IMG/VR virus record: IMGVR_UViG_3300042878_001497
Span: 109,416 to 173,415 of that record
DNA from: a virus
DNA length: 64,000 nucleotides
Direction: 5' to 3' (one strand)
The translations under genes and the position numbers were made by a program. Of the stretch, positions 10,048-51,630 are shown piece after piece. Position 1 is the first letter of the stretch. Each line of letters starts with the position of its first letter. The notes beneath the pieces are model-generated. The model was given only the letters and a program-made list of their open reading frames with translations, was not told the origin of the DNA and searched no databases.

Positions 10048-10431
10048 ATGAAGCTTATCTCTGCTCTTCTTTCGGAATCTAAAAGCGGTATCTTTGACGG
10101 TAAAACTTACCTTGATGATGCTACTTCGGCTATGGAGTTTGAGAAAGGGTACGAGGCCTTAGCTAGATTTGTTCATCCTAGACTAGTTATCAAAAAAGGC
10201 CACGATCCCGATCTAAAAATGGATTTAACCATAGCTTATGAAGAGCCTTCGGATTTACACTTTAGGTATATCGAGACTACGGGAGAATTTTTCTACGATG
10301 AAAAAATCTTCAAAGCAATCCTTCAGACCCCGGCCGTAAGAGAGAAACTAGGTAAGCTTTGGAATATCTCCCCGGACCCGGTAGAGGTATTTCGCCGCTA
10401 CGGTGCTGTTACAACTAAACTATCAGCGTGA
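10048..10431 (+). CDS. hypothetical protein with capsid-targeting-like N-terminus
   Basis: A 127-residue protein starting MKLISALLSE-S. The first ten residues match the pattern MKLxxxLLxE shared by many proteins in the window and end in a possible T4-type prohead protease site (L-S-E before S). The rest is alpha/beta and unrecognised. It may be a packaged internal head protein; this rests only on the N-terminus and the late-type motif upstream. Confidence 0.6.
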   Translation: MKLISALLSESKSGIFDGKTYLDDATSAMEFEKGYEALARFVHPRLVIKKGHDPDLKMDLTIAYEEPSDLHFRYIETTGEFFYDEKIFKAILQTPAVREKLGKLWNISPDPVEVFRRYGAVTTKLSA

Positions 10432-47278: not shown

Positions 47279-47857
47279 ATGGCAAATCTCTTAATTGAAT
47301 ATACCCCCTTCCGTCCTACGATCACCGAGTCCGTCAAAAGACCCGGTATCTTTGAGGTGACAGGTGTTATGCAGAGAGCCGGAAAGAAGAACCAAAACGG
47401 AAGAATCTACGAAAGAGCTATCCTCGATAGAGAGGTTAAGAAGTACATGGAAGCTTTCGTTAAAGTAGGTAACGCATACGGTGAACTAGATCACCCAGAA
47501 TCTCCAATTGTATCACTAAAGAATGCTTCACACGTTGTGAAGGATTTATGGTGGGATGGAGATGATCTAATGGGTAAGGTTGAGCTACTCAACACCCCGG
47601 CCGGTAACATCGTAAAAGAAATCATCAAAGGCGGACACACAATCGGTATCTCTTCTAGAGGTACAGGTTCAGTCCAGCCAATTGGTGAGAACACCCTAAT
47701 GGTTAAAGACGATTTTGAATTGGTGTGCTGGGATTTCGTATCGAATCCTTCTACACACGGAGCATTTCTAAACCCCGTCTCTTTAAATGAAACAAAGCAA
47801 GTTGTAGACCGCTACAGCAAGCTTCATAACATTATCGGAGACATTTTAAGAGCATAA
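47279..47857 (+). CDS. 21: prohead protease (gp21-like)
   Basis: A 192-residue serine protease of the T4 gp21 family. His72 (GELDHPES) and Ser125/126 (GISSRGTGS) mark the active site, followed by ELVCWDFVSNPSTHGAFL. It should cut head proteins after (L/I)-x-E. A possible autoprocessing site is I-T-E/S at 17/18. It lies between core and scaffold genes as in T4. Confidence 0.9.
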   Translation: MANLLIEYTPFRPTITESVKRPGIFEVTGVMQRAGKKNQNGRIYERAILDREVKKYMEAFVKVGNAYGELDHPESPIVSLKNASHVVKDLWWDGDDLMGKVELLNTPAGNIVKEIIKGGHTIGISSRGTGSVQPIGENTLMVKDDFELVCWDFVSNPSTHGAFLNPVSLNETKQVVDRYSKLHNIIGDILRA

Positions 47858-47880: not shown

Positions 47881-48177
47881 ATGGAAAACTTTGATTTAAA
47901 AAAATTCTTAGTAGAGAATAAGCTTACTGATAATTCTAAGGAATTATTAGAATATGATATTAAATCGACCGGTGAGGAAGAAATTATCTACGAAGTAGAG
48001 GTACTTGATGAAGACGGTAAAATAAAGTCCTATACTAAACTTAGCGCCGAGAAGTTTGACCTGTACATAAAAAATAGCCCCCTACCAGTAACAATCAAAT
48101 TCAAAAACAGAACAGTAAGAGCTGTTACGAAAATCACAGGAGTCACTGACGATATGGGTCGTCCGATGAACCTATAG
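47881..48177 (+). CDS. head-cluster hypothetical protein
   Basis: A 98-residue protein, MENFDLKKFLVENKLT onward, with a helical start and a beta C-terminus (YEVEVLDEDGKIKSYTKL). It is preceded by an A-rich run rather than a late-type motif. Function unknown. Confidence 0.55.
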   Translation: MENFDLKKFLVENKLTDNSKELLEYDIKSTGEEEIIYEVEVLDEDGKIKSYTKLSAEKFDLYIKNSPLPVTIKFKNRTVRAVTKITGVTDDMGRPMNL

Positions 48178-48210: not shown

Positions 48211-48384
48211 ATGACATCACAAGAGTTATTCGAAAAAATTGATGCCCTGTACCAGGAATTCGTTTCTAATCACAACAAAGAGACTAAGGCCGCTAAAGCA
48301 AGAGCCCGTAAGAATCTAGGAGAGATTAAAAAACTTGTTACCGAATACAGAAAAGTTTCAACTGCTGAAAGTAAGGCAAAGTAA
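48211..48384 (+). CDS. histone H1-like (Hc1-type) protein
   Basis: A 57-residue protein. The core KAAKARARKNLGEIKKLVTE and the following YRKVS closely match small Bacteroidota histone H1-like (Hc1) proteins, which bind and compact DNA. Here it lies in the head gene cluster between protease and scaffold. It may coat packaged DNA or act on the host nucleoid. Missed by size filters; supported by the coupled TAATG to the next gene. Confidence 0.7.
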   Translation: MTSQELFEKIDALYQEFVSNHNKETKAAKARARKNLGEIKKLVTEYRKVSTAESKAK

Positions 48385-48506
48385 TGGCAAAGTCAGCCAA
48401 GAGAAGACAAGCCGCTTTCAAGCCCTTAAGTAGAAAATCTCAGGTTAAATTCAAAAAAAGAATGCAGACCAATAACGAGATCTTAAGCAAGTTAGAAGCT
48501 AAATAA
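48384..48506 (+). CDS. 40-residue basic protein
   Basis: MAKSAKRRQAAFKPLS onward, with 12 Lys/Arg in 40 residues. It starts inside the previous stop and ends just before a terminator. It probably binds nucleic acid together with the histone-like protein. Confidence 0.5.
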   Translation: MAKSAKRRQAAFKPLSRKSQVKFKKRMQTNNEILSKLEAK

Positions 48507-48532
48507 AACTCCCTCGGGCGCTACCTTGGGCA

Positions 48533-48559
48533 CCTCGGTCGAAAGGCCGGGGTTTTTTT
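48533..48559 (+). terminator. intrinsic terminator
   Basis: CCTCGGTC-GAAA-GGCCGGGG followed by seven T. It separates the protease/histone unit from the scaffold and capsid unit. Confidence 0.85.
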
Positions 48560-48577
48560 GTTTTTGTAACTCATATG

Positions 48578-48585
48578 TATTTATA
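48578..48585 (+). promoter_or_regulatory. late-type motif TATTTATA
   Basis: Lies 94 nt before the scaffold ATG at 48680, the longest such leader here. Confidence 0.45.
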
Positions 48586-48679
48586 TACGAATATATCGTC
48601 ACAGATACGATATCGAATGTAAACAAACTACATTACACCCCCACAAATTTAATGGGTGTACAAATCCAAAGTTAACAAC

Positions 48680-50035
48680 ATGGCTAACAAAGATTTATTT
48701 AAGCAGGCTATTGCCGATGCTAAGTCTATTCGTGAAGCTGCCATTGCTAATGCTAAACTTGCTTTGGAAGAGTCTCTAACTCCTCAATTGAAAGAGCTTC
48801 TAGCTCAACGTCTCGCTGAGATGGAAGAAGAGGAAGCACCTGCCGCTGTAATTTCTGAAGAAGAAGTAACAGAGGAAGTAGCTGAAGAGTCTCTTGAAGA
48901 AGCAATCGGACCAGACGGCCTACGGGCTGTTGCCGAAGCAGAAGAAGAAGGCGCTGAAGAAGAAGGCGAAGAAGAAGGTGAAGAAGCTGGCGAAGAAGCC
49001 GAGGGTGACTCTGAAGAATCAGAGGACGAGGCAGAAGAAGAGGTTGGTGAGATGAGCGTTGATGACCTTAAGGACTTAATCCGCGACGTACTTATGCAAG
49101 TAATGGGCGACAAGGAAGCAGGACAAGAGGACGAACTAGAGGCTGGTGCTGAGGAAATGGGTGCTGAAGATATGACCGCTGTAACTGATACAGAGATCAA
49201 TATCGACGAACTTATGGCCGAGCTAGCTCTTATCAATGACCCAGAAGGACCTACAGCACACGGTAACATTCCGGAGGCTAAGAAAGAAGCAGATCCACTT
49301 GCTGAAGCTGCAGTAAACGAATTAATGGGCTACCTAAAAGCCGAAGTTAAGCAGACTGTAGGTGCTTTTGCTGAACGCAAAGGTATGACTCTACAAGAGG
49401 TGATGACGGAGATGGCTAAGTACGGTGCATCCGTTGATATGAAAGAAGTTGCTAAGATGCTTGAAGCTGCTCACGGATTAGGTGAGGCTGCTTGCAACAG
49501 AGTAATGGAAAGACTTATCACAACTCCTGTAGCTACTGCTCCCGCAATGGAAGAAAGCGCTGAGGATGTAATTGAAAAAATTAAAAGTATGGGCAAAGAC
49601 GCTGCTAAAGCAGTCGTTAAAGCAGTTACTGATTTTATTGACTACACACCACTTGATCCAAGAAACCGATACGAAAGCGCTGACATACAGGAAGCTCTAT
49701 CTACCATCGAAACTCTCCGTAACGAATTAAACGAGACTAACTTGCTTAACGCTAAGTTACTCTACGTAAACAAAGTGTTCAAGGCTAACAACTTGACTGA
49801 AGGTCAGAAAGCAAACGTAATCGCTACTTTCGATAAGGCTGAAACAGTTAAGGAAGTTAAGCTAGTATACGAAACAGTTAGTAACAACGTTACTGCTGGA
49901 GGTAAGAAAGAAGTAGTGAAGGAAGCCAAGGGCTTTGCTTCAGCTGCTGCAGGAATCTCTACCAAGCCAGAAGTAATCACTGAAACTAATGCGGCTGTAC
50001 TGCGTATGCAAAAACTTGCAGGTATTATTAAATAA
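48680..50035 (+). CDS. 22: scaffold protein (gp22-like)
   Basis: A 451-residue acidic, Glu/Ala-rich helical protein in the place of the T4 scaffold. It contains many protease-type sites: L-E-E/A (74/75), L-A-E/A (209/210), L-G-E/A (269/270), L-T-E/G (374/375), fitting a scaffold that is chopped up on maturation. The very acidic stretch at about 85-125 is low complexity. ATG 48680 is preferred over GTG 48656. Confidence 0.8.
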   Translation: MANKDLFKQAIADAKSIREAAIANAKLALEESLTPQLKELLAQRLAEMEEEEAPAAVISEEEVTEEVAEESLEEAIGPDGLRAVAEAEEEGAEEEGEEEGEEAGEEAEGDSEESEDEAEEEVGEMSVDDLKDLIRDVLMQVMGDKEAGQEDELEAGAEEMGAEDMTAVTDTEINIDELMAELALINDPEGPTAHGNIPEAKKEADPLAEAAVNELMGYLKAEVKQTVGAFAERKGMTLQEVMTEMAKYGASVDMKEVAKMLEAAHGLGEAACNRVMERLITTPVATAPAMEESAEDVIEKIKSMGKDAAKAVVKAVTDFIDYTPLDPRNRYESADIQEALSTIETLRNELNETNLLNAKLLYVNKVFKANNLTEGQKANVIATFDKAETVKEVKLVYETVSNNVTAGGKKEVVKEAKGFASAAAGISTKPEVITETNAAVLRMQKLAGIIK

Positions 50036-50052: not shown

Positions 50053-51630
50053 ATGGAATTAAATTCTCTTTTAAACGAATCAGCACAGGGCTTCAAGTCT
50101 CTGCAAGCTGATGCTGCTAGACTCGCTGACAAGTGGTCTGCAACTGGTCTTCTTGAGGGTCTTGGCAACGAGATCGACAAGAACAATATGTCTATGATCC
50201 TTGAGAACCAGGCAAAACAAATCATCAAGGAATCCAACGCTACCAATGCTAACGGCGGAGCCGAGCAGTGGGCTGGTGTTGCTCTACCGCTTGTAAGAAA
50301 GGTATTCGCTCAGATCGCTGCTAAAGATTTCGTATCTGTACAGCCTATGAACCTTCCTTCAGGTCTTGTATTCTATCTTGACTTCAAGTACGGTACTACT
50401 GCTAACGGAAGAACTGACGGTGACAATATGTACGGTAACGTATCTACTGCTAACAACAAGATGTCTGTAGACGAGGAAGTTTCTGGCGGCCTTTACGGTG
50501 CTGGTCAATTCGGCTACACTATCAACTCAGCTTCTTTAGCTATCACTCAATCTACTGGTGCTGCTACTTCAGCTTCTATCGGATACCGTGACGAACTAGC
50601 TGGAACTTTATTCAAGACTGTATCAGTTTCTGCTGCTAGCTTCACAGCCCCAGATCTTAAGGGTGTAAGAGCTTTCCGTCTTCGTTCTGGTTCAACTGAC
50701 GTAACTAACTACCCAGAATTCACTACTTACGACGGTACTAACATTATCTTCGTAGTTAAAGCTAGCGACCTTTCTGTAACTGGAGAAATCACTGGATCAG
50801 TAATGTACCACAAGCAGCCTACTGACACTACTAGAGGTGACTTCGAATTCACTGGTGGTGTTGACGACAGAAGCCCAGCTATCCCTGAGATCAACGTATC
50901 TCTTGCTTCTGAGGCTATCGTTGCTAAGACTAGAAAGCTTAAAGCTCAATGGTCTCCAGAATTCGCTCAAGACTTGAACGCTTACCACAGCATCGATGCT
51001 GAGGCCGAGCTTACCTCACTTCTATCAGAGTACATCTCTATGGAAATCGATCTTGAGCTTCTTGACATGCTTATCCAAGACGCAGTTACTACTGAGCGTT
51101 GGTCAGCTGAGAACAACAAAGTGTGGAATGCCACTACTGGCTTGTGGTCTACTGCTACTGCAGACTTCTACAACACTCAAGGTCAGTGGTTCCAAACTCT
51201 TGGTACTAAGGTCCAGAAGGTGTCTAACAAGATCCACCAGAAGACTCTACGTGGCGGTGCAAACTTCCTAGTAGTTTCTCCGACTGTTGCAACTATCCTC
51301 GAGTCAATCCCAGGATATGCTGCTGATACAAACGGAGACAAGATGGACTTCGCAATGGGCGTACAGAAGGTAGGTCAGCTTAACAGCCGCTTCCGCGTAT
51401 ACAAGAACCCATACATGACTGAGAACGTAATCCTTATGGGCTACAGAGGTTCACAGTTCCTAGAGACTGGTGCGGTTTACGCTCCTTACATCCCTCTAAT
51501 GATGACTCCATTAGTGTACGATCCTGCTAACTTCACTCCAACGAAGGGCATCATGACTCGTTACGCTAAGAAGATGATCCGTCCAGAATTCTACGGTAAG
51601 ATCTACGTTTCTGACGTAGCTACTATCTAA
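50053..51630 (+). CDS. 23: major capsid protein (gp23-like)
   Basis: A 525-residue gp23-type capsid protein. The signature is WAGVALPLVRKVFAQIAAKD, then FVSVQPMNLPSGLVFYLDF. Candidate maturation sites are L-N-E/S (9/10), L-L-E/G (35/36) and I-K-E/S (60/61); the last is closest to the T4 gp23 cut after residue 65. The first nine residues MELNSLLNE resemble the leader of many other late proteins here. Confidence 0.9.
   Translation: MELNSLLNESAQGFKSLQADAARLADKWSATGLLEGLGNEIDKNNMSMILENQAKQIIKESNATNANGGAEQWAGVALPLVRKVFAQIAAKDFVSVQPMNLPSGLVFYLDFKYGTTANGRTDGDNMYGNVSTANNKMSVDEEVSGGLYGAGQFGYTINSASLAITQSTGAATSASIGYRDELAGTLFKTVSVSAASFTAPDLKGVRAFRLRSGSTDVTNYPEFTTYDGTNIIFVVKASDLSVTGEITGSVMYHKQPTDTTRGDFEFTGGVDDRSPAIPEINVSLASEAIVAKTRKLKAQWSPEFAQDLNAYHSIDAEAELTSLLSEYISMEIDLELLDMLIQDAVTTERWSAENNKVWNATTGLWSTATADFYNTQGQWFQTLGTKVQKVSNKIHQKTLRGGANFLVVSPTVATILESIPGYAADTNGDKMDFAMGVQKVGQLNSRFRVYKNPYMTENVILMGYRGSQFLETGAVYAPYIPLMMTPLVYDPANFTPTKGIMTRYAKKMIRPEFYGKIYVSDVATI

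Follow-up and report, generated by a model that had tools for sequence, protein, structure and literature searches.

The window analyzed here is a stretch of 64,000 nucleotides at the very end of a virus record of 173 kb (IMG/VR IMGVR_UViG_3300042878_001497). The phage is T4-like, and the host of its nearest isolated relative is Flavobacterium. The head gene cluster runs from gp17, an ORF that we take to be the terminase from its relatives and general knowledge of such genes, through gp20, three ORFs of 284, 72, and 286 aa, the gp21 prohead protease, a 98-aa ORF, a 57-aa Hc1-type protein (Hc1), a very basic 40-aa protein (the 40-mer), a terminator, and a gp22-like ORF to gp23 (Table 1). A sequence-only reading of the window had placed a histone-like protein and its basic partner in the head cluster, between the prohead protease and the scaffold. 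Both ORFs are present, sharing one base in TAATG, and the head-cluster setting holds. One detail required correction: the 98-aa ORF separates the protease from Hc1. The scaffold is a candidate named by its position and acidity (pI 4.3), with no family match above the cutoff in Pfam or PHROGs.

Table 1. Features of the head gene cluster, in window coordinates
Feature	Coordinates	Strand	Evidence or remark
Terminase ORF (putative gp17)	start 41833		
Portal (gp20)	start 43441		PF07230
gp21-type prohead protease (Peptidase_S77)	47279..47857	+	Pfam PF03420, E = 6e-31; phrog_207, E = 1e-49
98-aa acidic ORF, tag-like N-terminus MENFDLKKFLVENKLT	47881..48177	+	Between protease and Hc1
Hc1-type (PF07432) 57-aa protein	48211..48384	+	Pfam match, selection, AlphaFold2 hairpin
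40-aa very basic protein, over the Hc1 stop codon (TAATG)	48384..48506	+	8 homologues, selection
Conserved GCTACCTT loop element	48515..48535	+	Short hairpin between Hc1/40-mer genes and terminator
Intrinsic terminator, setting Hc1/40-mer apart from gp22	48532..48560	+	9-pair stem, then T run; fold z = -2.0
gp22-like acidic scaffold candidate	48680..50035	+	Position and pI 4.3 only
gp23 major capsid protein	50053..51630	+	Pfam PF07068, E = 2e-81

Pairwise comparison of dN with dS among four relatives indicated that both ORFs are constrained as proteins. Hc1 yielded dN values of 0.026 to 0.074 and dS values of 0.37 to 2.57 (six comparisons; dN/dS well under 1), and the 40-mer yielded dN values of 0.13 to 0.28 and dS values of 0.82 to 1.65. 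Thus, both are genuine genes under purifying selection, and the possibility that they are chance ORFs is ruled out. Selection on Hc1 is strong, and the constraint is much stronger than that on the 40-mer.

The 57-aa protein belongs to the Hc1 family, as had been proposed from the sequence: it matched Pfam Hc1 (PF07432) over nearly its full length at 44 bits (E = 1.1e-11 to 2e-11), above the curated gathering cutoff of 23.5. PHROGs offered no clear family for it (best E = 0.01), the best match among PDB sequences had an E value of 0.59, and a plasmid search gave no match. The AlphaFold2 model is a two-helix hairpin (residues 3 to 21 and 26 to 56; mean pLDDT of 97.2) and therefore does not represent the canonical histone fold, which has three helices. 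Fold searches with this model returned common hairpins only, with no match at an E value of 0.001 or better; a predicted structure labeled "Histone H1" from an uncultured virus aligned with it at a TM score of 0.92, though with an E value of 0.25. The predicted hairpin is a common shape that matches many unrelated chains. The conserved ARK motif and the basic helix 2 of the two-helix core are present in the window protein, and 25 phage Hc1 rows all share, among other invariant positions, R33, K34, K40, K41, and R47. The K and R residues of helix 2 lie on the side opposite the hydrophobic face (clustering P = 0.014 by permutation for the window protein), and mean net charge ranged from +3 to +6.3 for helix 2 and from -1.8 to -4.0 for helix 1 in 11/11 groups. 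DNA binding by bulk charge is not a given, because some Hc1 relatives (L024) have a net charge of 0.

The 40-mer contains 13 K or R residues and 2 D or E residues. With a pI of 11.6 and the TAATG overlap, it bears out the earlier claim that Hc1 is coupled to a very basic peptide; only 4 of the 198 window ORFs of 35 to 60 aa reach a net charge of at least +11. It matched no family in the libraries searched. An alignment of 8 homologues has 11 invariant columns, and the predicted model consists of two short helices (pLDDT of 90). We saw the 40-mer in 32 loci, many of them copies of the same contigs, each time directly behind Hc1, and a separate scan with its alignment gave 17 loci. It was found only at head-cluster copies of Hc1, in close relatives; thus, only some of the close relatives have the pair, and Hc1 alone is broader. 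We also considered a frameshift that would fuse Hc1 with the 40-mer. Both arrangements of the junction give the 40-mer the same frame offset, and coupled translation is preferred because inspection of the junctions revealed no clear slippery site.

Between the pair and the terminator, the GCTACCTT loop is invariant in 12/12 aligned loci, and the stems differ. The pattern CTACCYTRGG occurred in 28/44 Hc1-bearing gp21-gp22 intervals versus 0/46 Hc1-less ones; an Rfam search returned a PsrR1 match at an E value of 0.43, far under the gathering score of that family. An AT-rich element, TATGTATTTATATACGAATATATCGTC, lies at 48574 to 48600, upstream of gp22, and is also found upstream of gp22 in relatives. 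It has no second good copy within the window and is a probable gp22-gp23 promoter.

Seven related records longer than 100 kb, picked through their protease or terminase and not through Hc1, each contain exactly one Hc1. Two shorter records from the same survey lack it and carry little weight. In a wider set of 24 records, some of them selected by their Hc1, 14 had a match, and all 10 records without one were shorter than 65 kb. Hc1 thus seems to belong to the core gene set of these phages. Its location varies. In five of the seven large relatives, Hc1 sits behind the phage GroEL gene, outside the head cluster; the distance is about 20 bases in G002 and G129, and Hc1 is one gene away from GroEL in G001 and two genes away in G128. 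In phage immuto, it directly follows GroES-GroEL and lacks the 40-mer. The window phage has its own GroEL at 68608 to 70128 of the record, next to other small ORFs and no Hc1. Among 80 loci fetched through the protease, some of which end before the relevant place, 26 have Hc1 behind it; where both the protease and gp22 were detected, Hc1 lies between them in 44 loci and is missing from 46. The gp21-gp22 interval of Hc1-less relatives spans 119 to 1,071 bases and holds varied, unrelated small genes. From these gene orders, we conclude that Hc1 has changed place within the group, with the gp21-gp22 interval serving as a permissive slot; the move would have been from GroEL to the head cluster. 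The position of Hc1 by the head genes seems to reflect a local rearrangement and does not prove that the protein is packaged with the DNA.

A motif scan of viral contigs, together with earlier scans, gave at least 256 loci, a few of them cellular, which encode at least 156 distinct Hc1 proteins. Neighbors within 700 bases were recorded, and the resulting counts of distinct proteins, which come from motif-driven scans and are not prevalences, were at least 47 beside gp5/gp25/gp6 baseplate genes, 21 beside cupin or FAD-oxidoreductase genes, 13 at gp21/gp22, 13 beside a hub protein, 7 beside a ClpP-like protease, 5 beside GroEL, 1 beside a clamp loader, and 49 beside none of these. PHROGs supplied the names of the baseplate, hub, tail-tube, and protease genes; the cupin, FAD-oxidoreductase, and clamp loader names are our reading of the sequences and are putative. 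In T4-like contigs (L198, L209, L264, and at least about 50 others), Hc1 lies exactly between the gp5 baseplate hub/lysozyme and the gp25 baseplate wedge genes. At least 11 loci (L279, L207, L231, and L300 among them) have Hc1 directly behind the ClpP-like protease, which falls in phrog_94 (head maturation protease); genes resembling clamp loaders lie close by. In a 634-kb uncultured phage, Hc1 follows a gene that is, by our recognition, presumably UvsX-like, and further members occur in Lak megaphages and in Synechococcus phage S-SRM01.

Relative to the cellular Hc1 rows obtained, the inter-helix loop of the window protein is four residues shorter, and the GNKAAG of the usual motif is replaced. 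When loop columns were removed, a tree of few columns and many open forks separated 56 short-loop proteins from 95 others on one branch (SH-aLRT of 99.5). This clade takes in the window protein and members from the gp21/gp22, cupin/FAD, and GroEL contexts. It contains phage sequences only and none of the five rows from the Marinimicrobiota phylum or the four rows from viral contigs that we take to be Bacteroidota-style. Because the clade held only phage sequences, recent capture from the host is disfavored in this tree, whose rows did not include Bacteroidota chromosomal Hc1s, and the suggestion that the gene was captured from the present host gains no support. A scan of genome contigs gave four Hc1 loci, and Hc1 is present in 3 of 100 genomes sampled from the phylum to which G025, a Marinimicrobiota metagenome-assembled genome (MAG), belongs. 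Chromosomal-looking Hc1 genes were seen in Marinimicrobiota and uncultured MAGs (L172 to L174).

We favor, with a probability of roughly 0.55, the reading that the 57-aa protein is a phage-lineage Hc1 nucleoid-associated protein that acts on intracellular DNA as several hairpins, strengthened by the 40-mer. DNA binding by Hc1 is suggested by the conserved basic stripe and by the finding that chlamydial HctA condenses the Escherichia coli nucleoid (PMC13317200). In the predicted antiparallel hairpin, helix 2 would pack its hydrophobic face on helix 1 and expose the invariant Arg/Lys stripe on the opposite side. Several hairpins may come together with this stripe facing double-stranded DNA, so that the large pool of replicated phage DNA would be compacted or protected in the cell before packaging. 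Through coupled translation, the 40-mer probably supplies a charged tail equivalent to the one that HctA carries itself. Replication, chaperone, and structural genes all neighbor Hc1 across phages, and a general DNA role therefore fits better than that of a single head part.

The sequence-only reading took the placement of the pair as a sign of a role with packaged DNA, and Hc1 may be present in virions. Placement is no evidence for packaging, however, because the same gene lies behind GroEL in most of the large relatives and in other contexts elsewhere; the variable gp21-gp22 interval and the lack of a tag-like N-terminus also fail to bear the claim out. An N-terminus of the form M...L-L-x-E-S/A/N/G, a pattern that we defined ourselves, is carried by 10 of the 85 window genes of at least 60 aa (mean of 2.0 and maximum of 6 in 500 shuffles). 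This predicted tag is found on gp23 and the 98-aa ORF and is absent from Hc1 and the 40-mer. Similar N-termini (MKLxxLLxES, MENFDLKKFLVENKLT, and MELNSLLNES of gp23) occur at 10048, 28402, 37464, 37672, 39434, 47881, 50053, and other positions, and that of the 98-aa ORF recurs in relatives on proteins that differ in the rest of their sequence. They possibly form a family of tags for capsid targeting and protease processing that identify packaged proteins; if so, the lack of one would be mild evidence against packaging of Hc1 by means of a tag. Some T4 core proteins have no tag of this kind. For the T4 internal proteins, entry into the prohead depends on a capsid targeting sequence at the N-terminus, which is removed afterward (PMC7697877).

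It is rather unlikely that Hc1 and the 40-mer are taken up into the prohead core and remain with the packaged DNA as the T4 internal proteins do. The gp21-gp22 location of some distinct Hc1 proteins, the tight placement of many more beside baseplate genes, and the confinement of the 40-mer to head-cluster copies are consistent with such a fate, and compaction during packaging is also suggested in a report on moraphages (PMC12619734). Against it stand the terminator between Hc1 and gp22, the position of Hc1 outside the head cluster in most large relatives, and the missing N-terminal tag, which T4 internal proteins need (PMC7697877). We regard as quite unlikely a more far-reaching proposal, in which a large T4-like clade would condense its DNA for packaging with a dedicated histone system of two components, the Hc1 hairpin and a separate basic tail peptide, some of it staying in the head, and other T4-like lineages would do the same by moving Hc1 into the baseplate operon. 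If that were true, the packaged genome would be partly protein-condensed.

Improbable, in our view, is a takeover function in which the phage protein would compete with the nucleoid proteins of the host, or take their place, to silence host transcription. Bacteroides ihuae, the sole Bacteroides genome among 14 controls, has an Hc1, and E. coli synthesizes less protein and DNA in the presence of chlamydial Hc1 (cited in PMC12619734); however, the phage proteins group apart in the short-loop clade, and the neighbors in the window are of late type, whereas early genes would be expected. The repeated closeness to morphogenesis genes (GroEL, prohead protease, baseplate wedge, and hub) and the zero net charge of some members also fit a helical hairpin that aids folding or assembly of virion parts without binding DNA, the account that we rate least probable. 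The invariant basic stripe, the known DNA-binding family member HctA, and the copies behind a UvsX-like gene and near clamp-loader-like genes speak against it.

The presence of one Hc1 per large relative examined, at differing sites, suggests that many large phages control the shape of their DNA in the cell, a function that has hardly been annotated, and immuto phages, grown on Flavobacterium sp. LMO8, offer a testable system. Phage PF07432 proteins are already in print, and the family is common in large phages. In the open-licence literature that we searched, PMC12619734 was the only paper to contain the term PF07432, and we found no mention of a place in the head cluster, a basic partner, conservation as one copy in the group, the GroEL link, the baseplate-operon members, or the short-loop clade.

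The window protein shares with Pfam Hc1 the near-full-length match, the two-helix core, and the basic second helix. Its likeness to the T4 internal proteins IPI to IPIII is that these are small phage proteins of the head. IPI to IPIII carry a capsid targeting sequence (PMC7697877), whereas the window Hc1 and 40-mer have no comparable tag. Among large phages predicted to infect Bacteroidota, the moraphages (2025) encode a PF07432 histone H1-like protein in four complete genomes, for which compaction in packaging was suggested; they are a different phage lineage, and the available excerpt of the report mentions neither a head-cluster position nor a basic partner (PMC12619734). The S-SRM01 protein annotated as "histone H1" (MW015081), which a search with a different viral Hc1 identified as belonging to the family, differs in host and in its place between hypothetical genes and a porin; the main text of the S-SRM01 paper (PMC8557907) contains neither the word histone nor virion mass spectrometry. 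The immuto (NC_055915) hypothetical protein KNV73_gp196 is 70% identical to the window Hc1 and has the same short loop, but it differs in place, directly behind GroES-GroEL and without the 40-mer. Chlamydial HctA carries a Lys-rich C-terminal tail on its own chain. Such a tail is absent from the window ORF, which stops after the core and is followed by the separate basic 40-mer; Hc1 with its basic peptide would thus be a natural split form of a core-plus-tail histone.
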